A DNA stretch of 26,025 bases. It comes from a virus. The stretch spans positions 1 through 26,025 of IMG/VR virus record IMGVR_UViG_3300026078_000993; one strand, given 5' to 3'. How positions within the stretch are numbered: the first letter of the stretch is position 1; each line of letters starts with the position of its first letter. The notes under the pieces were generated by a model. The model saw only the letters and a program-made list of their open reading frames with translations. It was not told the DNA's origin and did not search any database. Positions 7,566 through 26,025 of the stretch are shown here, piece after piece. A program made the translations under genes and the position numbers.

Positions 7566-7634
7566 TCCCCCTTTGCGGAGGGGGCTTGGGATGTCCCCAC
7601 ATCTCCAAACCGCGAGCCTGCACTCGCACTCTCA

Positions 7635-7657
7635 GGGCGGCGCGCCCGCCCGTTTTT
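7635..7657 (+). terminator. Rho-independent terminator before the adenine methylase gene
   Basis: GGGCGG (7635-7640) pairs with CCGCCC (7646-7651) around CGCGC, followed by G and five T (7653-7657). It would end the J-I-H transcript and leave the adenine methylase, whose ATG is at 7709, to readthrough or its own promoter. Confidence 0.65.
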
Positions 7658-7708
7658 GAGTTCCCTCCGTGGCCTAGCCGCGTCGGGACATCTTGCAGGA
7701 TTTCCTAC

Positions 7709-8527
7709 ATGTCTACCCCTTTTGTTCCCGTTCGCCCGGTTTCTCCCGTCGCCGGATATATCGGCGGAAAACGCAACCTTTCCCGGCGGATATGCGCCAT
7801 CATCGATAGCATCCCGCACAGCAGCTATGCCGAACCCTTCGTGGGCATGGGCGGCATCTTCCTGCGCCGCACGCGTCGCCCGCGCGCCGAAGCGATCAAC
7901 GATATTTCCGGCGACGTCGTGACGCTGTTCCGCTGCCTTGCGGAGCATTATCCCTATCTGGTCGACATGCTGCGGTTCCGCGTGGCGAGCCGCGCCGAGT
8001 TCGAACGCCTGCTGGGGCAGGATCCCGATCACCTGACCGACCTTCAGCGCGCCGTGCGCTTCCTCTATGTCCAGCGCCTCGCATTCGGCGGCAAAGTGTC
8101 GGGCCGGGGTTTTGGAGTCGATGCCGCCGCACCTGCCCGTTTCGACGTCGGCAAGATCGAGCCTATGCTTGCTGATGTCCATGAACGGCTGCAGTCCGTC
8201 GTGATCGAGCGGCTTCCATATGCCGACTTCATCCGGCGCTATGATCGCGATGGCGCGCTATTCTATCTCGACCCGCCTTATTGGGCATGCGAGCGCGACT
8301 ATGGTGCCGATGTCTTCAACCGCAGCGATTTCGCTGCGCTGGCCGAGCAGCTGGCAGGGATCGAAGGCAAGTTCCTGATGTCGCTGAACGACACCCCCGG
8401 CGTCCGAGAGACCTTCGCGCGCTTCGCCATAGCCTCGATCGACACCACCTACAGCATCGGCGGCAAGCCGAAGAAGGCAGGCGAAGTGCTGATCAGCAAC
8501 TTCGCGCTGCCTGCTAACGATCTTTGA
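7709..8527 (+). CDS. DNA adenine methyltransferase, D12 (Dam) class
   Basis: A 272-aa N6-adenine DNA methyltransferase. The AdoMet-binding motif AEPFVGMGGIFLRR is at about residues 41-54, preceded by the GYIGGKRNL block (17-24) typical of D12 enzymes. The catalytic DPPY is at residues 188-191 (FYLDPPYWACERDYG). The order of motifs (F-G-G first, DPPY last) is that of Dam/DpnM-type enzymes. Recognition sequence cannot be read from the protein. The frame is open further upstream to 7586, but that part crosses the terminator and has no methylase-like sequence. The ATG at 7709 has GCAGGA eight bases before it. In a phage it most likely protects phage DNA from host restriction or affects gene expression. 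No matching endonuclease gene is nearby. Confidence 0.92.
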   Translation: MSTPFVPVRPVSPVAGYIGGKRNLSRRICAIIDSIPHSSYAEPFVGMGGIFLRRTRRPRAEAINDISGDVVTLFRCLAEHYPYLVDMLRFRVASRAEFERLLGQDPDHLTDLQRAVRFLYVQRLAFGGKVSGRGFGVDAAAPARFDVGKIEPMLADVHERLQSVVIERLPYADFIRRYDRDGALFYLDPPYWACERDYGADVFNRSDFAALAEQLAGIEGKFLMSLNDTPGVRETFARFAIASIDTTYSIGGKPKKAGEVLISNFALPANDL

Positions 8528-11311: not shown

Positions 11312-11827
11312 ATGGGACTGCCCAGCATCCTCAAGAACATGATGCTTTTTAACGAAGGCCAGAATTACATGGGGGAGGTCAAGACCGTGACCCTGCCCCC
11401 GCTCACCCGCAAGATCGAGGAATGGCGCGGCGGCGGCATGCCTGGTGCCATCGGCATCGACATGGGCATGGACGGCCTGCTGGAAATGGCCTCCACCTTC
11501 GGCGGCCCGATGCGCGACATGCTGCGCCAGTTCGGCATCCTGGCGGTCAACGGCGTCTATCTGCGCTGGGTCGGCTTCCACCAGAAGGACGACACCGGCG
11601 CGACCGACAGCGTCGAGGTCGTCGCGCGCGGGCGTCACAATGAAATCGACATGGGCGACCAGGAAGTCGGCGAGGTCGGCGAATTCAAGGTCACGACCAC
11701 GCTCGCCTATTTCAAGCTGGTTTGGAATGGCCGAACCGAGATCGAATATGATCCGCTGAACGGCGTCTTCATCGTCAATGGCGTCGACCTGATGGCGCAG
11801 CAGCGCGCTTCTCTCGGCATGTTCTGA
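11312..11827 (+). CDS. FII: Tail tube protein gpFII
   Basis: A 171-aa tail tube protein of the P2 FII family, the inner tube through which DNA passes. It begins GLPSILKNMMLFNEGQNYMGEVKTVTLP and contains the typical MGMDGLLEMASTFGG block. The central RGRHNEIDMGDQEVGEVGEFKVTTTLAYFKLVWNG is strongly conserved in the family. AGGAG lies about 8 bases before the ATG. It is followed by a strong hairpin and then the damaged gene E. Confidence 0.96.
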   Translation: MGLPSILKNMMLFNEGQNYMGEVKTVTLPPLTRKIEEWRGGGMPGAIGIDMGMDGLLEMASTFGGPMRDMLRQFGILAVNGVYLRWVGFHQKDDTGATDSVEVVARGRHNEIDMGDQEVGEVGEFKVTTTLAYFKLVWNGRTEIEYDPLNGVFIVNGVDLMAQQRASLGMF

Positions 11828-11868: not shown

Positions 11869-11954
11869 CTTCATCACCGGGAATTTCTCATGAGCGACAC
11901 CAATGCCCCCCTGTTCCGCACCGTCACGCTCATGAGAAATTCCCGGTGATGAAG
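11869..11954. repeat. Perfect 28-bp inverted repeat across the start of gene E
   Basis: Bases 11869-11896 are the exact reverse complement of 11927-11954, with a 30-base loop (11897-11926). The left arm holds the sequence before gene E, its ATG (11890) and the next four bases. The right arm lies within what should be coding sequence and brings in two consecutive TGA codons (11947-11952). Pairing stops exactly at both ends of the arms. In RNA the stem would bury the gene E start site. Confidence 0.95.
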
Positions 11955-12198
11955 ACAGACGATCGCCACCCTCCAGCTGCGCAAGCCCAAGTCGGGCGAA
12001 CTGCGCGGCCTCTCCCTGGTCGATCTGGGCCAGCTGAAGGTCGACAGCCTGACCAAGCTGCTGCCCCGCATCTCGACCCCGCCCATTTCCGAAGTCGAAG
12101 CCGGCAATCTCGACCCGGCGGACCTGCTCGCATGCGGCGCGGAAATCGGCGGTTTTTTGTTGCAGAAGTCGCAGCGCATGGATGCCCTCGATCAGTAG
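11890..12198 (+). pseudogene. E: Tail assembly chaperone gpE, interrupted by in-frame stops
   Basis: The frame begins ATG 11890 (MSDTNAPLFRTVTL), meets TGA TGA at 11947-11952, then continues in the same frame as RQTIATLQLRKPKSGELRGL and LVDLGQLKVDSLTKLLPRIS down to LQKSQRMDALDQ and TAG at 12196. The part after the stops is clearly the P2-type tail assembly chaperone, in which a T-(I/V)-x-LRKP-SGELRG motif is conserved. The reading frame is kept across the lesion, so about eight to nine codons between VTL and QTIATL look replaced by an inverted copy of the start region. In P2, gpE and the frameshift product E+E' chaperone the tape measure, so loss should block tail assembly. A sequencing or assembly artefact is possible. 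Confidence 0.85.
12153..12159 (+). other. -1 programmed frameshift site T-TTT-TTG in gene E
   Basis: In the E frame the codons are GGT TTT TTG, giving the classic slippery heptamer T TTT TTG, as used between P2 E and E'. After a -1 slip the frame is open without a stop through 12344 and enters E' directly. The feature remains intact although E is broken upstream. Confidence 0.85.
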
Positions 12199-12206
12199 AT
12201 GACGCG

Positions 12207-12344
12207 ATGGCGGACGTGGCGGTCATCTTTCATTGGCCGCCGCAATCCATGGACGACATGCATCTGTCCGAACTCATGGCCTGGCGCGATCAGGCCGCGA
12301 AACGCTCCAAGCCCCCCGAAACACCGAAAACGAAGAAGCGCTGA
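12207..12344 (+). CDS. E': GpE' (GpE-family tail protein), made by frameshift from E
   Basis: Forty-five codons from ATG 12207, reading MADVAVIFHWPPQSMDDMHL and SELMAWRDQAAKR. The FHWPP and M-x-x-M-x-L-x-EL-x-x-W(R) pattern is the P2 GpE' signature. It lies in the -1 frame relative to E, which stays open back through the slippery site, so the natural product is most likely an E-E' fusion with this segment at its C-terminus. The annotated ATG marks only the conserved part and may not be used. Its TGA overlaps the tape measure ATG (TGATG). Confidence 0.85.
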   Translation: MADVAVIFHWPPQSMDDMHLSELMAWRDQAAKRSKPPETPKTKKR

Positions 12345-14797
12345 TGGCTGACAAGAACCTTCGATTGCAGGTCATCCTTGAAGGGCTGGACCGCGTTACC
12401 GCGCCGTTGAAACAGATCACCGGCGCGTCGGCCGCCGCGCGCCGCGACCTGGCGGAGACGCAAAAGCAGCTGAAATCCCTCGACGCCCTGCAAAAGCACG
12501 TCAGCAGCTACAAGGCGAAGGAAAGCCGGTTCGCGGACGATACCCGCAACTATGAGGCGGCCCAGCAGCGCGTCGCCGCCCTGCGCGACCAGATCGCCGC
12601 GACCGAAGGTCCGACGAAGAAGCTACGCATGGAATTCGATAAGGCCGAACGCCACACCGCCCAGCTGGCGGCGCTGCTCGATGCCGGCGGCGCCGAACTC
12701 CAGCAGCTGTCCGCCAAGCTGTCGGCCGCCGGCATCGACGTCGCGGACCTGGCTGGGCATGAAGGCAGGCTGGCGAACCGCGTCCATGATGCCAACCAGG
12801 CCTTGCGCCAGCAGACGGCCCAGCTGAAGAAGGTCGAGCAGGCGAAGCGCAATTCAGAAAAGCTGAACGACATCAGCGGCAAGGCGACGGGCGTTGGCCT
12901 GGGCATGATCGCCGCCGGCACCGCCGCCGCTGTCCCGGTCGTCGCCGCGACCAAACAGGCCATGTCCCTCGAAAGCGCGATGGCGGACGTCTCCAAGGTC
13001 ACGAACATGGCCGCGCCCGCGATCGAGCGCATGTCGACCGACTTCCTCGACATGAGCGAACGCATCCCCATGGCGGCGAACGAACTCGCCACCATCGCCG
13101 CCGCTGCGGGCGCCGCTGGCGTCGGCATGGACAAATTCGGCAAGCCCATGCGCGACCAGCGCGAACAGCTGTTGGAGTTCACCAACGACGCGGCCGAAAT
13201 GGGCGTGGCTTTCGACATGACAGCCGATATCGCCAGCGAGACGATGGCGAAGTGGCGCACCGCCTTCGAACTGCCCCAGGCCGGCGTGGTCGCCCTGGGC
13301 GACCGCGTCAACGCCCTGACCAACACCTTCGGCGGCAAGGCGGCGAACGTCACCGACATCATCACCCGCATCGGCCCGCTGGGGAAGGTTGCCGGCCTCG
13401 CCGCGCCCCAGATCGCCGCCCTCGGATCGACGCTGGACAGCATCGGCGTCCCCAGCGAGGTCGCCGCCACCGGCATCAAGAACACGATGCTGGCACTGAC
13501 CAAGGGCGACGCCGCCACCAAATCGCAGATCGCCGCCTATAAGCAGCTGGGCCTTGAAGCCACCGACGTCGGCAAACGGATGCAGACGGACGCCGCCGGC
13601 ACGATTATCGACGTGATGGAGCGGATCGGCAAGCTGGACGCGGACAAGCAATCGGGCATCCTGACCCAGCTGTTCGGTTCAGAAAGCGTCGCGGCGATCG
13701 CGCCGATGCTGACCAACCTCGATGGGCTGAAGCGGCGCCTAGAACTGGTGGGCAACGCCGACGCCGTCGCGGGATCGATGCACGGCGAATTCCTGAACCG
13801 CATCGCGACGACCGAAGGTGCGACGGGCCTCGCCACCAACGCCCTGTCCGGCCTCAACATCACCATGGGCAAGGCGTTGCTGCCCACCGTCGTCCAGCTG
13901 GCCGGCTATGTGAAGTCGGTCGCCAGTTCGATGCGCGGATGGGCGCAGGAACATCCCGTCCTCGCGAAAGGCATCATGATCTTCATGGGCGCTGGCGCGG
14001 CGCTGCTGATCCTGCTCGGCGGCCTAGCATTGGGCTTCGCAGCCCTGACCGCCGCCGCCGCGCCGCTGGGCATCGCTCTGGGACCGTTGCTGCTGATCGT
14101 TGCCGCCGTGGCGGCCGTCGCGGCTGCGGCCTATCTGATCTATGACAATTGGGGCGCGATCACGGCCTGGTTCTCCGCCCTGTGGGAAAACATCAAGGCC
14201 ATGGTTGGCGGCGCGATCAATTTCCTGATCGCAGCCTTCCTGAAATTCACGCCATTGGGCCTACTGATCAGCGCCTTCGCACCGGCGCTGGCCTTCCTGC
14301 GGTCACTGAATTTCACCGAAATCGGCCGCAATTTGATCCAGGGCCTCATCAACGGCTTCGTTGGCATGCTCGGCGCGCTCAAATCTACCGTCGTCGGCGC
14401 CGCCAGTTCGGTAGCCAATTGGTTCAAGGCGAAGCTGGGCATCCATTCGCCCTCGCGCGTCTTCGAAGGTCTGGGCGGCTTCGTCATGGCGGGGCTGGAC
14501 CAGGGCCTGGCGAACAATACGTCCGGCCCGCTCTCCCGTATCACGCAGCTGTCCGGCCAGATGACCAGCGCGCTCGCCGCCGGAGCCGTCGCGCCCGTCC
14601 TGGCCGCCGCTTCCCCCGCCATGGCACAATCCGCCGCGGCTTCCCCCGCGACGGCCGCCGCCGCCGCGCCGGCGACCTACAATATCAACATCACCGCCGG
14701 CCCCGGCGCATCCGCCACCGATATCGCCGGAGAGGTTCGCAAGGCCCTCGAAGCGATCGAGCGCGAGCGGCGCGGGCGCGGCTTTGGGGACGACTGA
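12344..14797 (+). CDS. T: Tail tape measure protein gpT
   Basis: An 817-aa tape measure protein, which sets tail length and is released into the cell during infection. It has an N-terminal coiled-coil region (residues about 20-160, rich in Gln, Lys and Glu), then the phage minor tail/tape measure domain (AMSLESAMADVSKVTNM... to RIGPLGKVAGLAAPQIAALG, about 205-370). A strongly hydrophobic stretch lies at about 540-600 (GAALLILLGGLALGFAALTA and LLLIVAAVAAVAAAAYLIY). The end carries the common KLGIHSPSRVFEGLGGFVMAGL motif and an Ala-rich linker. ATG 12344 is chosen because it overlaps the E' stop; an open extension to 12233 is only the E' region in another frame. Confidence 0.93.
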   Translation: MADKNLRLQVILEGLDRVTAPLKQITGASAAARRDLAETQKQLKSLDALQKHVSSYKAKESRFADDTRNYEAAQQRVAALRDQIAATEGPTKKLRMEFDKAERHTAQLAALLDAGGAELQQLSAKLSAAGIDVADLAGHEGRLANRVHDANQALRQQTAQLKKVEQAKRNSEKLNDISGKATGVGLGMIAAGTAAAVPVVAATKQAMSLESAMADVSKVTNMAAPAIERMSTDFLDMSERIPMAANELATIAAAAGAAGVGMDKFGKPMRDQREQLLEFTNDAAEMGVAFDMTADIASETMAKWRTAFELPQAGVVALGDRVNALTNTFGGKAANVTDIITRIGPLGKVAGLAAPQIAALGSTLDSIGVPSEVAATGIKNTMLALTKGDAATKSQIAAYKQLGLEATDVGKRMQTDAAGTIIDVMERIGKLDADKQSGILTQLFGSESVAAIAPMLTNLDGLKRRLELVGNADAVAGSMHGEFLNRIATTEGATGLATNALSGLNITMGKALLPTVVQLAGYVKSVASSMRGWAQEHPVLAKGIMIFMGAGAALLILLGGLALGFAALTAAAAPLGIALGPLLLIVAAVAAVAAAAYLIYDNWGAITAWFSALWENIKAMVGGAINFLIAAFLKFTPLGLLISAFAPALAFLRSLNFTEIGRNLIQGLINGFVGMLGALKSTVVGAASSVANWFKAKLGIHSPSRVFEGLGGFVMAGLDQGLANNTSGPLSRITQLSGQMTSALAAGAVAPVLAAASPAMAQSAAASPATAAAAAPATYNINITAGPGASATDIAGEVRKALEAIERERRGRGFGDD

Positions 14798-16300: not shown

Positions 16301-17377
16301 TTGATTTTGAGCTTGTTCTGTGGCGCGGGGGGGTTGGATCGGGGCTTCGAAGATGCTGGCTTCGATGTGGGTCTCGCATTCGATCGCAATGCCGATAGCG
16401 TGCTATCGTATAACAAAAACCGACCTAAAGCACCAAAGGGACACATTGCGGATGTCTCGACACTAACCCTTACGGACCTAGATAATCTGCATGGAGGCGT
16501 ATTCGCTCCCTCAGGGGTCATAGGTGGCCCACCCTGTCAGAGCTTCAGTCAGGCGAACGTACATCAGCGAATTGACGATCCGCGACACACCCTACCTGTC
16601 TCCTATGCACGCCTAATCCAGTCATTGAACGAGCGAAACCCCGTCGACTTCTTTGTAATGGAAAACGTAGTTGGTCTTACGATGAAGAAGCACCGTGAGA
16701 CATTGAATGAAACTTTACGCACGCTTGAATCGGCAGGCTTCCACGTGGAGCAGGAAATTCTAGACGCACAAAATTTCGGCACTCCCCAAGTTCGGCGACG
16801 GGTTTTTCTTGTCGGATTCAACAGAGAAAAATATCCCGGTCTGCGATGGAAGGCCCCTACTCCTGAGAGAAAGCCCTCTCTAACTGTGCGCGACGTAATA
16901 GAGAATCTTCCAGAACCGGTATATTTTAAAAAGGGCTTGAACTGCGAGGAATTTGACAAACATCCAAATCACTGGTGCATGCAACCCAAATCGGCGAAAT
17001 TCTTTCGCCACGCGGTGCTTACACCTTCCGCTGCGAAGGGCCGAAGCTTCAAAACTCTTGCTTGGGAGAAGCCCAGCTTTGCTGTTGCTTACGGCCATCG
17101 CGAAGTACATGTACACCCGGAAGGTAAACGCCGCCTGAGCGTCTATGAAGCAATGCTCTTACAAGGCTTCCCTCACACTTATCGATTGTATGGAAATTTG
17201 TCGTCTCAGTTTCGTCAGGTAAGTGAGGCGGTCCCCGTTCCGCTCGCGCGGGCGGTCGCACAATCAGTTGCAGATCAACTATTTGAGGCATGTTCAGCTG
17301 CCGACGTTGAGGTCAAGCGGCCTAATCCTATGCTCCCCCAGCCATCGCTGCCATCCCGGGATATCGAAGCCTGCTGA
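16301..17377 (+). CDS. DNA (cytosine-5) methyltransferase
   Basis: A 358-aa C5-cytosine methyltransferase with motifs in canonical order: I (LSLFCGAGGLDRGF, residues 3-16), IV with catalytic C79 (GGPPCQSFSQAN), VI (FFVMENVVGL, E121-N-V), VIII (QVRRRVFLVGF, 163-173), then the recognition region and motif X (QVSEAVPVPLARAV). The start is TTG 16301, since AAAGGGG precedes it by seven bases and the protein would lack motif I if it began later. The last 27 or so codons overlap the 3' end of the opposite-strand partner gene. Codon use is less GC-rich than the phage genes. Neighbours suggest a defence or modification cassette rather than a lone methylase. The target sequence is unknown. Confidence 0.94.
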   Translation: MILSLFCGAGGLDRGFEDAGFDVGLAFDRNADSVLSYNKNRPKAPKGHIADVSTLTLTDLDNLHGGVFAPSGVIGGPPCQSFSQANVHQRIDDPRHTLPVSYARLIQSLNERNPVDFFVMENVVGLTMKKHRETLNETLRTLESAGFHVEQEILDAQNFGTPQVRRRVFLVGFNREKYPGLRWKAPTPERKPSLTVRDVIENLPEPVYFKKGLNCEEFDKHPNHWCMQPKSAKFFRHAVLTPSAAKGRSFKTLAWEKPSFAVAYGHREVHVHPEGKRRLSVYEAMLLQGFPHTYRLYGNLSSQFRQVSEAVPVPLARAVAQSVADQLFEACSAADVEVKRPNPMLPQPSLPSRDIEAC

Positions 17378-18634
17378 ACGCAAAAGTTTTTCGGTCCCGG
17401 TAACAACTTCATTACGCAAATCCGTTTGATCTTCGATTGCCTGGTCCAAATTCCAGAGTTTCTTTGCTCGCGCAACAATCGCGACTGCATCTTGCAATTC
17501 CACATTTGGGACTACAATTGCGCCCCCTGTATTGGGGGCCTGAGCTTGAATTCCTTTCGGCGTGATACGAAATGCTAAGGAAAGCATATCTGGCTCATCC
17601 CGATGAACTTTATAAGCATATGCACTAACCAGCTCGACGCCGGCCGGAAGATTGATTTGAGCATGATAGAAATGTAATAAGTATTTACCAAGTCCTATAC
17701 AAAACAATCTTAAGAAATTTATATCCTGATTCGACCAACATCCATTCATTGCCGACGTAAGGTTATGCAACTGCGCATCGATACATTCAGAAAGCGGTTT
17801 CGCGAAAGCATCGTTGTGCTGATCAATGTTCTTACCTATCGCTGTTTGAAACTTCCGAGCAGGAACTCCGAGCAGATCAACGTCGGCGCGAGTAGTTACA
17901 AACAGTAACCACGGTTCTTTGGCAATCATCTGATGCTTTAATAATTTTTCCAGTGCATCAAACATCGAAGCTTTTCGATTCTTAGGCACGTAGCCAAGAT
18001 GATCACAAGCATCCATGTTGATTATATCAAAAACGCCCTGCCGATCCAGCATCGTTGCAGCAAGACTTTCATCCTGCGCTATATCTTCCAATCGATCCTT
18101 AAGGATCACCGCATCTTCTGTAATCCTGTCAGCTTGTCGCAGGGCTGACTCAGCAGCCAAGTATGCGCTCTTCGCTCCATTGGCCGCAACTTCCCCGTCG
18201 CCTTCGTAACCAGAATCAAAACCGAAATATTCTATCCGCGTTCCCGCTTCGACAAGAGAGTCCGCGAGCACACGAACGTCGAACAAATCCGCACCAGGCA
18301 GCGTAAAATAACGCAATTTATCTCGGCGTTCAGCCGAGCGATGGCTCTCAATCAGCCGTTTTGCACTCTCCACCCACTGCCTTTGACGCACAATTTGCTT
18401 AATAGGATGGTGCCACGGCTTGTAGTCGGTACGCAACGGCGCCATGACGAATTCATCGGAGCCATCATCTCCATGAACGATCCCGACGTAATCATCTTCC
18501 GCGATGTCGTCTGGCAATTTCTGCGATGTATCAGGCACCTGATGCAAATGGCTCTCCACCGCTGCTTTTGAAGGCTGCGCCATTTCGCCACGCAAATGTT
18601 CTGGAAGGTTATCACCCATTGAACCGCCGCTCAT
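17294..18634 (-). CDS. Partner protein of the GHKL ATPase (unknown, possible methyltransferase-like fold)
   Basis: A 446-aa soluble protein without signal peptide or membrane helix. I see no PD-(D/E)xK, HNH, GIY-YIG or PLD motif. Four blocks are spaced like strands of a Rossmann-type methyltransferase: RYFTLPGADLFDVRVLADSL (about 108-127), IEYFGFDSG (134-142), FDIINMDACDHLG (202-214) and PWLLFVTTRADVDLLG (243-258). The glycine-rich AdoMet loop is not convincing, so it may be degenerate; this fold is inference. Its ATG shares one base with the ATPase stop (TGATG), so the two are translationally coupled and probably act together. Its last 84 bases are antisense to the end of the methylase gene. 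Composition is AT-richer than the phage genes. Confidence 0.8.
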   Translation of the reverse strand: MSGGSMGDNLPEHLRGEMAQPSKAAVESHLHQVPDTSQKLPDDIAEDDYVGIVHGDDGSDEFVMAPLRTDYKPWHHPIKQIVRQRQWVESAKRLIESHRSAERRDKLRYFTLPGADLFDVRVLADSLVEAGTRIEYFGFDSGYEGDGEVAANGAKSAYLAAESALRQADRITEDAVILKDRLEDIAQDESLAATMLDRQGVFDIINMDACDHLGYVPKNRKASMFDALEKLLKHQMIAKEPWLLFVTTRADVDLLGVPARKFQTAIGKNIDQHNDAFAKPLSECIDAQLHNLTSAMNGCWSNQDINFLRLFCIGLGKYLLHFYHAQINLPAGVELVSAYAYKVHRDEPDMLSLAFRITPKGIQAQAPNTGGAIVVPNVELQDAVAIVARAKKLWNLDQAIEDQTDLRNEVVTGTEKLLRSAGFDIPGWQRWLGEHRIRPLDLNVGS

Positions 18635-20619
18635 CAGGCTTCCCCCAAGAAAACTGCAAAAATTGCTGCAATCAATTCTTGCTGCTCATCATATGTCCTT
18701 CCTTCAAGCACGTCATATGCGGCAAGGACTTGAACGAGCGCTTCCATTTGGCTGTCGCGCACGACTTGATCAACACTGCGATTTGCCCTGGGAATTTGAG
18801 CTTTTAATATCGCGAAAGAGCCAGATTCCCGAGCTTCCAGAGCTTGCATCGGCGTTTCAGCGATGACCACTTTTGGCACTGGCTCCGAACCTTTACGGCG
18901 TTCCCATATGCCACTCACTTGCCTGGATAGCTGCGTTCGCTCTTCCGTGGAGTTCGCGTCATTGCGAGCATCGCGCGCCTCTTTTGCTTCAGCTTTCAGG
19001 CGGTTAGTCAATTGCCGAATCGCACCGTGCAACCACAGACTAACCAACTGGAGGTGGGGATGAGCGAAATTAAATGACTCACGATCGATGTTAAGGGCAG
19101 CATCCAAGCCCCGATCAACAAATAATTCGGACGTTATCTGCCTAAGACGCGTTTGCTCCGAAACCTGATATTTAAAAAATGAGGGATCAAACAATGCCCC
19201 ACTGGCTTCTCTTATTCTTACAAGAACGCCATTATTTTCTTTTGGAATTATGCGACCACCCCACCAAAGATAGCCGTCCAATGACAGATCGCCTCCCCTC
19301 TTAGAGGTGGGTACGCGGCTTAGATCGGGTTCAAAGCGACCAACAAACATAACCGCTTTTTCCAAGCTACGCGCATCGGCCTTTCTGTAGGTGAACTTGA
19401 TCGGCCGCTTCAGCAAAACACCGTCTATAGTGACTTTGAACTGACCCAATGGATCACGCCCAGCTCGCAGCACTGGATTCCCAGGCGCCTGTGCCTCGAC
19501 GCCTTCTCGCACAGTTTGATTTGGTGAGAGTTCTATCGACAACCCTCTCCCACGCTCTTTTGTAACCCAGAAGAGCTGAACATCGTCGGAGCCGGTGAGG
19601 TCAAATGGATGCTTATCGACGTAGTCAACAGGCGCCGATAATCCAAGACTCCAAATCAATTCCAAATAGGCGTCGAGGGTCTTTGCCAATTCTGGTCTAT
19701 CGATCACGCTAGATTCAGCTTCAACCTTCTCCACCAGCTTCGACATGCGCATGTCGGCGGGATCATCGTCTGCCCAAGGCAAGTTGGGCTGTTCCGCAAA
19801 AAGGACAGGACCTTCCTTTGGATCGATCAATTTCCCTAGATAACCGGAATGGTAGCTAGGCCTTTCGACACTCATACTGGCCCAAGTATCGATATCGCCT
19901 TGCTGTTGCGCCGCTTCACGTTCCAGGACGCCTTCCCAGCGCTCTGAACTTCTCAAGATATCGCGAACTCGCGGTTTAACGTCATCTAAGATGATGTCGG
20001 TCCCATGAGCTTGCAAGTCATCGGAATGTTCACGCCGTATATATACGTCGCCGGTTACATAGTCGTCATCATCTTCAGCCTCGATTGCATTTTCACCGTC
20101 TTCATGATACGCTCTGAGCCTGATTTCAGCGATCAAACGATAACTTTCTCCGTACCGCTTTGTAATTATTTGGAAGCGACGTGAGAGCTGACTAATGGAG
20201 AAAAGACCAATACCGATTTTACCGATAATTGGTCGACCCGACGGTGTGCATTCAAGATTGTCTGCATCTGTAATACCAAGTTCGGCACCATCTTTCCGGC
20301 GCTTCGCGCTTCCACCGATGTTTTTGAGCATCCGAGACAGGCTTCGATGATCCATCCCAATGCCATTGTCGCGGACGTAAATTCGAGAAAAGCGCGGAGC
20401 ATCTGTCAAGATCGTAACAGACGTCGCGTCGGCATCCCAGGCATTGGAAATTAGTTCGCGTAAAGCAGACGCCGGCTGACGATAGATTCCATCGGTAACT
20501 CGCGCAATAACTCTGTCGCTAGTTCCGAGTTTCGTCTTCACCACCTCTCCATCGTGAGCGGGATCGCCCAGCCAGGATATAAGCTCTTCTTGCTTGTTAA
20601 TTTGCCGGGTATCAGTCAA
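18634..20619 (-). CDS. GHKL (Hsp90/MutL/MORC-type) ATPase
   Basis: A 661-aa protein with an N-terminal GHKL ATPase domain. The N box is RELISNAWDADA (E55 catalytic, N59 for magnesium), G1 is DNGIGM (84-89) and G2 is GKIGIGLFS (133-141). An Hsp90-like second domain probably follows (about 220-450) and a charged helical C-terminus at about 550-600 (KAEAKEARDARNDAN). The proximal ATP-site sequence is closest to Hsp90- or MORC-like proteins rather than histidine kinases, since no kinase or receiver parts are present. Start is TTG 20619, with GGAG seven bases before it. GHKL ATPases are known partners of restriction-modification and antiviral loci; a clamp or DNA-sensing role here is inferred from the methylase and coupled partner. 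Confidence 0.9.
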   Translation of the reverse strand: MTDTRQINKQEELISWLGDPAHDGEVVKTKLGTSDRVIARVTDGIYRQPASALRELISNAWDADATSVTILTDAPRFSRIYVRDNGIGMDHRSLSRMLKNIGGSAKRRKDGAELGITDADNLECTPSGRPIIGKIGIGLFSISQLSRRFQIITKRYGESYRLIAEIRLRAYHEDGENAIEAEDDDDYVTGDVYIRREHSDDLQAHGTDIILDDVKPRVRDILRSSERWEGVLEREAAQQQGDIDTWASMSVERPSYHSGYLGKLIDPKEGPVLFAEQPNLPWADDDPADMRMSKLVEKVEAESSVIDRPELAKTLDAYLELIWSLGLSAPVDYVDKHPFDLTGSDDVQLFWVTKERGRGLSIELSPNQTVREGVEAQAPGNPVLRAGRDPLGQFKVTIDGVLLKRPIKFTYRKADARSLEKAVMFVGRFEPDLSRVPTSKRGGDLSLDGYLWWGGRIIPKENNGVLVRIREASGALFDPSFFKYQVSEQTRLRQITSELFVDRGLDAALNIDRESFNFAHPHLQLVSLWLHGAIRQLTNRLKAEAKEARDARNDANSTEERTQLSRQVSGIWERRKGSEPVPKVVIAETPMQALEARESGSFAILKAQIPRANRSVDQVVRDSQMEALVQVLAAYDVLEGRTYDEQQELIAAIFAVFLGEA

Positions 20620-20736: not shown

Positions 20737-21252
20737 TTATGACTGTCCGGCAAACCGAATGTCAGTCAGATGCCAACTCAGACCATCGCGTTTGAAGATC
20801 AGCGACGCCCCCGTCTCGTCCTCCTTGTTCACCAGACGGAACTCTGACAGCCCTACCCGCTCCATCTCCAAATTCTTCAGCCGCACGCCGATCTTCCCCT
20901 CTCCAGGCTTCGGTTCTGGCGCGTTGGCGAACACCTCGCGCATGGCCGCAGGCGTCACCAACGCCTCCACCATGCCCTCGACCATGTTCACGGCGAAGGC
21001 AGCACCCAGGGCAGCAAATGGATTATCGTCTTTGGCCTTGATCATTTCGGCGGCCATCTTCGCTTTCATCTGATCTTTCAGAGAAGCGCGTAAGGCAGGA
21101 AAGTCGATATATCCGGCCAGCTTGTCGGCATCTTTCGCCTCGGCCGCAGCCTGCATTTCATGAAGCGTCCAGCGCGGTGATCCGAAATACCATCCCGCAC
21201 CAATCGCAACCGCCGCCACCAGAGCGAGCGCCGCATAAAATCTCGACTTCAT
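20737..21252 (-). CDS. DUF2939-family membrane-anchored protein
   Basis: A 171-aa protein with one N-terminal membrane or signal helix (FYAALALVAAVAIGAGWYF, residues 5-23). The exported part opens SPRWTLHEMQAAAEAKDADKLAGYIDFPALRASLKDQM, the pattern of DUF2939. The C-terminal part (LKNLEMERVGLSEFRLVNKE, then DGLSWHLTDIRF) fits the same family. The molecular role of the family is unknown. GC-rich composition matches the phage or host, unlike the adjacent ATPase. It lies between repressor and ATPase on the same strand, so it may be expressed in the lysogen as a surface-modifying or exclusion protein; that role is inference. Confidence 0.75.
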   Translation of the reverse strand: MKSRFYAALALVAAVAIGAGWYFGSPRWTLHEMQAAAEAKDADKLAGYIDFPALRASLKDQMKAKMAAEMIKAKDDNPFAALGAAFAVNMVEGMVEALVTPAAMREVFANAPEPKPGEGKIGVRLKNLEMERVGLSEFRLVNKEDETGASLIFKRDGLSWHLTDIRFAGQS

Positions 21253-22390: not shown

Positions 22391-22587
22391 TGCGCGGCCA
22401 GGAATATCGCCTGCGGGGGCGTCACGCCTCGCGCCGAAGCTTCATCGTGCCAGACGAATTGATGGCGCAGCACACCGAACCAAGCGACACGCCGCAACCG
22501 CCACGCTGGTATAGCATCGTCGCCTTTCTCATCCTGAGCAGCGCCACCGTCTTTGCCATGTGCGCAATGGGGCGACCCGGCGCATGA
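22390..22587 (+). CDS. Small membrane protein
   Basis: A 65-aa protein from ATG 22390, with a basic start (MRGQEYRLRGRHASRRSF) and one membrane helix near the end (WYSIVAFLILSSATVFAMCAM, about 40-60). The function is unknown. The overlap with Cro (TGATG) and with the next ORF (ATGA) supports translation. Upstream in-frame codons to 22348 lie inside the Cro gene. Confidence 0.6.
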   Translation: MRGQEYRLRGRHASRRSFIVPDELMAQHTEPSDTPQPPRWYSIVAFLILSSATVFAMCAMGRPGA

Positions 22588-22754
22588 CGAAACTGCGCGC
22601 GCCTCTATCCTTCTCCCTCGCCATCACTACGGCCGTCGGCCTGATTGGTTGGGAACTGGCCGCAAAGATCACGACGGTCGAAGCGGGCGGTTCGCTATTG
22701 GAGCGAGAGCGACAAGACCAGCCTACCGACACTGGATCAGGCGATCGCGCTTGA
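22584..22754 (+). CDS. Tiny membrane-associated ORF
   Basis: A 56-aa ORF from ATG 22584, overlapping the previous stop (ATGA). A hydrophobic stretch (LSFSLAITTAVGLIGWELAAK, about 8-28) is followed by a polar tail. The latter part overlaps the next ORF in another frame by 110 bases. It is supported by coupling and the membrane segment; no function is known. Confidence 0.5.
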   Translation: MTKLRAPLSFSLAITTAVGLIGWELAAKITTVEAGGSLLERERQDQPTDTGSGDRA

Positions 22755-23070
22755 TCGCGAATTTCTTGTGGCAGGAGGCGGCTTCGCTCCAATCCTCGAA
22801 AGCTATGCGCGGCAGTTGGACATATCGCTGGTGGATACGCTGGCATGCCGGGCGGCGCTGGCCGACGACATCGCCCAGGCTACGCAGGAATCGGCGGACG
22901 CGATCAGCAGCAGCATCCATGTGACGCTACCCGGCGCCTCGCCGACCGAGATCTATCACGCCATCAAAGAGACTGAGGAAGCCAGTGGGGCGATGAACCG
23001 GCTGCTGACCCGTCTCAGATCCTTTCTGCCCGGCAATGGCGCCGGTCGGCGAGCAACAGGGGAAGCATGA
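22645..23070 (+). CDS. Unknown early protein
   Basis: Up to 141 aa from a TTG at 22645; the start is uncertain because no Shine-Dalgarno sequence is seen and a GTG at 22768 is also possible. The core (TLDQAIALDREFLVAGGGFAPI, then ESYARQLDISLVDTLACRAAL and IHVTLPGASPTEIYHAIKETEE) looks like a soluble, mostly helical domain. I recognise no family. Its stop overlaps the start of the Ogr-like gene (ATGA), suggesting co-expression with the late activator. Confidence 0.6.
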   Translation: MVGNWPQRSRRSKRAVRYWSESDKTSLPTLDQAIALDREFLVAGGGFAPILESYARQLDISLVDTLACRAALADDIAQATQESADAISSSIHVTLPGASPTEIYHAIKETEEASGAMNRLLTRLRSFLPGNGAGRRATGEA

Positions 23071-24880: not shown

Positions 24881-26025
24881 CGGACGCGAGCGAAGCGCCT
24901 GCATTCTGCCATGCCTGCGGCCAGCCGCTCGCACTTGCTCAGGCCTATCTCCTCACCGATGCGGTCGCGGATTATCGCCTCGAATGGGGCGACGCCCGCC
25001 TGTCGGGCGCCACCATCGAAGGCCGCCTGAAGCACGTCACCGAATTCCTCGAAGCGCAGGAGGCCGAACCCGCCGGTAAATTCGGCGTGGCCACGACCTG
25101 CGCCGCCGCCTGCACCAAAGTCTTCGTCAACGCTTTCCGCGCCTGGTTGAGCGAGCGCCCGGTGGAATGGAAGAACAAGGACGGCGAAGTCACCGTTTCC
25201 CGTCCGCGCTCCCCGGCCGCCGTGGAAGCCGCCATCGCGCAGCTGATCGCCGTCCTCAACCATGCAGCCAACGCCGACCCGCCACGTTCGGACAAGCGCC
25301 CGACCTATCGCCCGCTACCTGCCGCCCAGGTGCAGCGTAAACGCCGTACCCGCATCGGCGTCCCGGAACTGGCGGAAATGCTCAAATATGCGGCCGAAGC
25401 AGAAAAGCCGCGTGGATCGCTGCATGCCTTCCTGATCGGCACGCTCTGCACGATTGCACGCCCCAGCTCCGTGGTGGACATCTCGGTCCAACCGGCCCGC
25501 CAGCAATGGTGGCCCGGCTCCGCGACGATCGATCTCAACCCCGCCGGCCGCCGCCAGACGAAGAAATTCCGCCCGATGCTCCCGGTCCTGCCTTTACTGG
25601 ATCAATGGCTCTGCGCTGAATATGCCGATTGGCTTGCCGTGGAAGATGGCCTGAAACCGTCACGTGGCTGGCTGGTCAACTATTACGGCCGGGGTATTCA
25701 GGACGTCGACCGCGCCTGGGACACAATGCTGCACGCGCTCGACTATCCCACCGGCCGCGAATGGCGCTCCTATGTCCTGCGCCACAGCCTGGCCACCCTC
25801 TGCCGCAATCGCGGCGCCGAGCGCTGGGATCTGGAAGGCTTCATGGGCCACCGCGCCCCGTCGCAGACCGAAGTCTATGCGATGGGCGAATTTCCGTCGG
25901 TTCAGAAGGCTTTGCAGGGAATCATCGACGAAATCGACCAACGGGCACCCGGCACCCTGCGCCGGGTTCACACCGGAACGCAAAAAGCGCTCGAAAGCGC
26001 AAAGGAGCCAAAAATGTCAGGATAA
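24685..26025 (+). CDS. int: Tyrosine-recombinase integrase
   Basis: A 446-aa phage integrase. The core-domain residues are R259 (TIARPSSVVDI), K293/K294 (TKKFRPML), R366-H367 (SYVLRHSLATLC), H389 (FMGHR) and the nucleophile Y398 (EVYAMGE). The first position of the HxxR motif is Y363 instead of His, a tolerated but less usual variant. An N-terminal domain (to about residue 230) includes the core-binding helices and a C-x2-C pair (CHACGQ). It is read in the lytic direction at the end of the early operon, with GGAACAG about ten bases before the ATG. The attachment site should lie just beyond 26025. Confidence 0.92.
   Translation: MSAKSAPIYRRGKYWLDWDVKADGSRRSPNLTIFWYDPDTRRVRSASTGTADEDAGIVALDRRYLADASEAPAFCHACGQPLALAQAYLLTDAVADYRLEWGDARLSGATIEGRLKHVTEFLEAQEAEPAGKFGVATTCAAACTKVFVNAFRAWLSERPVEWKNKDGEVTVSRPRSPAAVEAAIAQLIAVLNHAANADPPRSDKRPTYRPLPAAQVQRKRRTRIGVPELAEMLKYAAEAEKPRGSLHAFLIGTLCTIARPSSVVDISVQPARQQWWPGSATIDLNPAGRRQTKKFRPMLPVLPLLDQWLCAEYADWLAVEDGLKPSRGWLVNYYGRGIQDVDRAWDTMLHALDYPTGREWRSYVLRHSLATLCRNRGAERWDLEGFMGHRAPSQTEVYAMGEFPSVQKALQGIIDEIDQRAPGTLRRVHTGTQKALESAKEPKMSG

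Follow-up and report, generated by a model that had tools for sequence, protein, structure and literature searches.

The window analyzed here, a stretch of 26,025 bases, is an IMG/VR virus record that holds a fragment of a P2-like prophage, with its nearest relatives found in Sphingobium and allied genera. Its tail module is complete and conventionally arranged (baseplate V and W, sheath FI, tube FII, E, E', tape measure T, U, and D), with J, I, and the fiber genes sitting elsewhere in the record. The last base of the record closes the stop codon of an integrase-family gene (26023 to 26025), and the left end is cut within a gene. The coincidence of the right end with the integrase stop codon suggests that an integrated provirus was trimmed from a longer contig of host DNA.

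Two regions of the window carry DNA methyltransferase-like genes. A block of cargo (16301 to 20619), with the late tail gene D on one side and the early region on the other, holds a cytosine DNA methyltransferase-like gene on the plus strand and two genes on the minus strand, namely, a 446-aa ORF with no match in PHROGs or PADLOC and one for a 661-aa protein that weakly matches type II restriction enzymes (PADLOC) and an RIIA-type family. The cargo looks like a prophage-borne restriction-modification system. It is adjoined by a gene for a DUF2939 protein (20737 to 21252, minus strand) that matches the PADLOC candidate defense family PDC-S55 (E value, 2.5e-39). The other methyltransferase-like gene (7586 to 8527; phrog_56) is found in the tail module, between the fiber genes and V, and is also present in the related locus L083.

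Within the tail module, the region of gene E is organized as follows:

11312 to 11827, plus strand: FII tail tube gene, intact, directly upstream of E
11869 to 11896, plus strand: left arm of an inverted repeat, consisting of the native E leader and start (ATG at 11890) and source of the copy; homologous sequence in L005 and L006
11890 to 12198, plus strand: gene E, tail assembly chaperone (Pfam PF10109, Phage_TAC_7), a pseudogene here
11892 to 11896, plus strand: native 5-nt seed GAGCG, pairing with CGCTC at 11927 to 11931 (from alignment to relatives)
11897 to 11926, plus strand: loop, 30 nt, native coding sequence of E
11927 to 11954, plus strand: right arm, exact reverse complement of 11869 to 11896
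11932 to 11954, plus strand: 23 new nt, in place of 23 nt kept by relatives (from alignment to relatives)
11947 to 11952, plus strand: tandem in-frame stops TGA TGA in E
12153 to 12159, plus strand: TTTTTTG slippery site for the E-to-E' -1 frameshift, intact; a feature of the family (PMC3931495)
12160 to 12344, plus strand: E' in the -1 frame (PF06528, Phage_P2_GpE), read after the frameshift; start approximate
12344 to 14797, plus strand: tape measure gene T, intact, downstream

E thus has the marks of a P2-like chaperone gene, with a Phage_TAC_7 domain encoded between FII and T, a slippery site, and E' in the -1 frame, but the ORF that should run unbroken from the start codon to the slippery site is interrupted by the TGA TGA pair. 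Every other tail gene checked is intact and open.

The first-pass annotation described a 28-bp stretch inside E as a perfect inverted copy of the E start region, and its coordinates, complementarity, and loop hold up. The two 28-nt arms are 100% reverse complementary, the left one spanning the E leader and first codons and the right one codons 13 to 22. In 60 dinucleotide-preserving shuffles of the whole 26,025-base window, the longest perfect inverted repeat within 200 bp measured 10 to 15 bp, and no other gene-internal repeat of comparable size and type was found among 310 related-phage loci (3.4 Mb, partly redundant). The repeat is therefore far beyond chance expectation. A second candidate inverted repeat, at 289 to 412 of locus L305, was discarded: the sequence there is repetitive and has stops in every one of the six frames, and the repeat is not gene internal.

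The relatives reveal what has changed. The four closest loci (L003, L004, L005, and L006), approximately 94 to 97% identical in DNA over kilobases, all have a normal E and no repeat, and E is likewise normal in the top viral relatives. The relatives have ACGCTC-GACACGCCGATCGAGCGCGGCGA-ACAGACG or something close to it; in the window, the stretch is ACGCTC-ATGAGAAATTCCCGGTGATGAAG-ACAGACG. The 23 nt at 11932 to 11954 are the reverse complement of 11869 to 11891 and substitute for exactly 23 nt that are conserved among ten relatives (83 to 100% alike). Identity to relatives is only 17 to 22% inside this segment, versus 90 to 98% to L003 through L006 in the left coding stretch and 93 to 100% in the 100 nt to the right. 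The left arm is the sole source of the 23-mer within the window, matching at 23 of 23 positions (the runner-up reaches 15). The right arm had been read in its entirety as an inverted copy; it is indeed an exact reverse complement, but only 23 of its 28 bases are new, CGCTC at 11927 to 11931 being native. These outermost five bases of the right arm are complementary to the native GAGCG and make up the seed junction. At the return junction (11954/11955), no base is shared with the sequence of the relatives.

When viral_contigs was searched for exact matches to the junction and to flanking alleles, no second record with or without the lesion emerged, although such searches may leave out records that are very near; megablast against plasmids gave no match. 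With blastn against phages, only relatives at 66 to 73% were recovered, and a genus-wide genome search of the Sphingobium relative reached at best 89% over the 651-nt query. It had been reasoned beforehand that conservation of the repeat in related phages would show it not to be a lesion; none of the relatives compared has it. As judged from these alignments, the repeat is a singleton and a derived state, an inverted copy within E that breaks the gene by replacing the conserved codons for LDTPIERGE and adding two stops.

The consequences for E follow the description given in the first-pass annotation: about eight codons are replaced, the frame is kept, and TGA TGA is brought in. The swap, 23 nt for 23 nt, leaves the length unchanged. 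Only 19 codons of E precede the stops, and its conserved LDTPIERGE stretch has been lost. Downstream of them, the E frame contains no ATG, GTG, or TTG before the TTG of the slippery site. The loss of E implies that of E+E', which needs translation of E up to the TTTTTTG; by analogy with P2, from which this need is taken (PMC3931495), neither product should be made. Since E is destroyed and LDTPIERGE removed, no functional tail should be expected from this prophage, which we infer to be defective.

The hairpin had also been proposed to hide the E start when transcribed. The folding prediction agrees, giving -54.6 kcal/mol for a 102-nt stretch, compared with about -27.4 kcal/mol for the same stretch in relatives, with a stem that covers the E start codon. 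Such a stable predicted stem would suit a functional hairpin or programmed switch that silences tail production by hiding the E start or reroutes translation into E' through the -1 frame. We regard this reading as very improbable, however, because the structure is absent from all relatives seen and E itself is destroyed by TGA TGA and by the loss of conserved residues. The rerouting variant, put forward as a bypass without frameshifting, relied on an ATG ATG at 11946 to 11951 that does not exist; the codons are GTG ATG, and the ORF from 11946 to 12344 begins with GTG. Moreover, of the relatives examined, nearly all (L003, L005, L006, L007, L010, L011, L016, L018, L083, L085, and L086, but not L004) likewise have an open -1 frame running through E into E', which makes it an ordinary property of this GC-rich gene. 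A bypass product would join out-of-frame E to the tail of E' and would include no E protein; it is not E+E'. Neither an inversion enzyme nor another copy of the arm was in evidence. That a real inverted copy was kept as a benefit to the lysogen, one-step silencing of E locking a prophage with restriction-modification-like cargo in a tail-less, non-killing state, seems to us just as far-fetched.

Over 80 codons outside the lesion, E differs from that of L003 by 2 synonymous and 0 nonsynonymous changes, a pattern indicating that the rest of the gene is under purifying selection, and the arms have not diverged from each other at all. For these two reasons, the event is either very recent or absent from the organism. 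The coding sequences show one further lesion: near 22671, 2 bp are missing (ACGCGACGG in L155, ACGACGG here), which frameshifts a 170-aa gene (22560 to 23067; phrog_38866, unknown function). L155 and the other relatives compared have this gene intact. The loss is either another recent lesion or an error of sequencing, and it suggests a prophage beginning to decay.

At about even odds (a probability of roughly 0.5), we favor a single, very recent, local inverted-copy mutation, caused by a short-range template switch in the P2-like prophage; the event would then have taken place in the cell, not in the tube or the assembler. A growing strand ending in CGCTC at 11931 would fold back onto the complementary GAGCG at the E start, copy 23 nt of the E leader in reverse (from 11891 back to 11869), and switch back to the usual template at 11955; the mirror version would have the other strand entering at 11955 and returning via the 5-nt match. 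Switch points 1 to 4 would thus lie at 11931, 11891, 11869, and 11955, in the order 3-2-1-4 (1-4-3-2 on the other strand), and intrastrand fold-back is allowed because point 2 precedes point 1 in 3-2-1-4. These two orders are among the majority patterns of short-range template switches and generate single inverted repeats (Walker et al. 2021, PMC7954356). The locus has the anatomy of a four-point template switch, for which the source of the copy is sought within about 100 to 200 nt: the cluster of differences is one reverse-complement copy from nearby (23/23), the ancestral state is given by the relatives, and the return to collinearity is clean on both sides of 11932 to 11954.

In favor of a template switch, there is a 5-nt inverted seed at one junction, and the change is confined to 11932 to 11954, with flanks 90 to 100% identical to the four closest relatives; the second lesion, near 22671, and the provirus-like right end of the record also speak for it. 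The zero net length change, the absence of homology at the return, and the occurrence in one record only weigh against it. Among great-ape template switches, only 5.5% are length neutral and the copied fragment has a median of 12 (PMC7954356).

Preservation of length would equally be expected from classical quasipalindrome correction, in which a preexisting imperfect hairpin is perfected. In relatives, however, the arm regions pair at only 9 to 11 of 28 positions, five of which are the CGCTC seed where it is present. Therefore, no quasipalindrome existed to correct, and, barring a lost intermediate, we reject this mechanism as scarcely credible here.

A template switch and a snap-back artifact had been named from the outset as candidate origins, and the anatomy fits both. 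We give the artifact slightly less than an even chance. The end of a fragment would have snapped back on the 5-nt seed during library preparation or assembly, been extended by 23 nt up to an arbitrary end of the read or contig, and then overwritten the consensus column by column as reads or contigs were merged, the E gene of the real phage being normal. The short complementarity typical of a fold-back junction is present (GAGCG/CGCTC, 5 nt), and this origin predicts all three features of the junctions: a short homology at the start of the copy, no homology at its end, and an unchanged length. Indeed, the conserved length and the homology-free return would result from the column-by-column merging of a snap-back tail, and the junction features fit such a read-end or consensus artifact as well as, or better than, a template switch. 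The fully selected appearance of E beyond the lesion and the intact state of the remaining tail genes also speak for an artifact. Inverted-repeat chimeric reads with misaligned ends are documented, both from library preparation (PMC10908179) and from MDA (PMC1855051).

A related metagenome contig, IMGVR_UViG_3300046507_000326 (L146), carries positions 7743 to 7764 copied in inverted orientation as 7851 to 7872. This 22-nt tail is flush with the contig end, with its source 86 nt upstream (loop of 86), and relatives continue normally at that point; it is likely a snap-back tail and lends weight to the artifact. Such a tail was found, however, at only 1 of 57 contig ends, and the 3.4 Mb of related loci offered no other gene-internal case. 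In addition, de Bruijn assembly needs reads that span a junction, in this instance the return junction GATGAAG/ACAGACG, and long contigs are usually adequately covered, so that in one of more than 26 kb a single chimeric read would generally be outvoted.

If the template switch is real, the locus provides a clean bacterial example of a perfect hairpin made in one step, with no prior quasipalindrome and caught before decay, and it explains the loss of an otherwise complete tail module. If the copy is an artifact, it warns that viral contigs can take up snap-back tails in their interior, where these mimic pseudogenes and regulatory hairpins; virus collections could then usefully be screened for length-neutral inverted copies as a check on quality.

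Under either origin, mutation or artifact, the event is of a known kind. The locus itself resembles the P2 FETUD tail operon, which encodes the tail assembly chaperones E and E+E' (Christie et al. 2002, as cited in PMC3931495), in its gene order FI-FII-E-E'-T-U-D, its T6G slippery site, and its Pfam TAC_7 and P2 GpE domains; it differs in that E is broken, in this record only. As in snap-back or fold-back chimeric reads (PMC10908179 and PMC1855051), an inverted tail is attached by way of a few complementary bases at a distance of tens of bases from its source, but such tails usually lie at read or contig ends, whereas here the sequence reverts to normal inside the contig. The quasipalindrome-associated template switches of E. 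coli and phage (Ripley model), the E. coli class of which is described in PMC7202029, are likewise proposed to involve intrastrand fold-back copying within one replication fork; they make near-perfect repeats perfect, whereas only a 5-nt seed was available here. The four-point template-switch class (Loytynoja and Goldman; PMC7954356; Monttinen and Loytynoja 2022, PMC8794818) shares with this locus a cluster of differences from one nearby reverse-complement copy, the order 3-2-1-4/1-4-3-2, and the perfect inverted repeat and new hairpin left behind. The present case departs from it in its zero length change and its 23-nt copy, and it comes from a bacterial prophage known from an assembled record.
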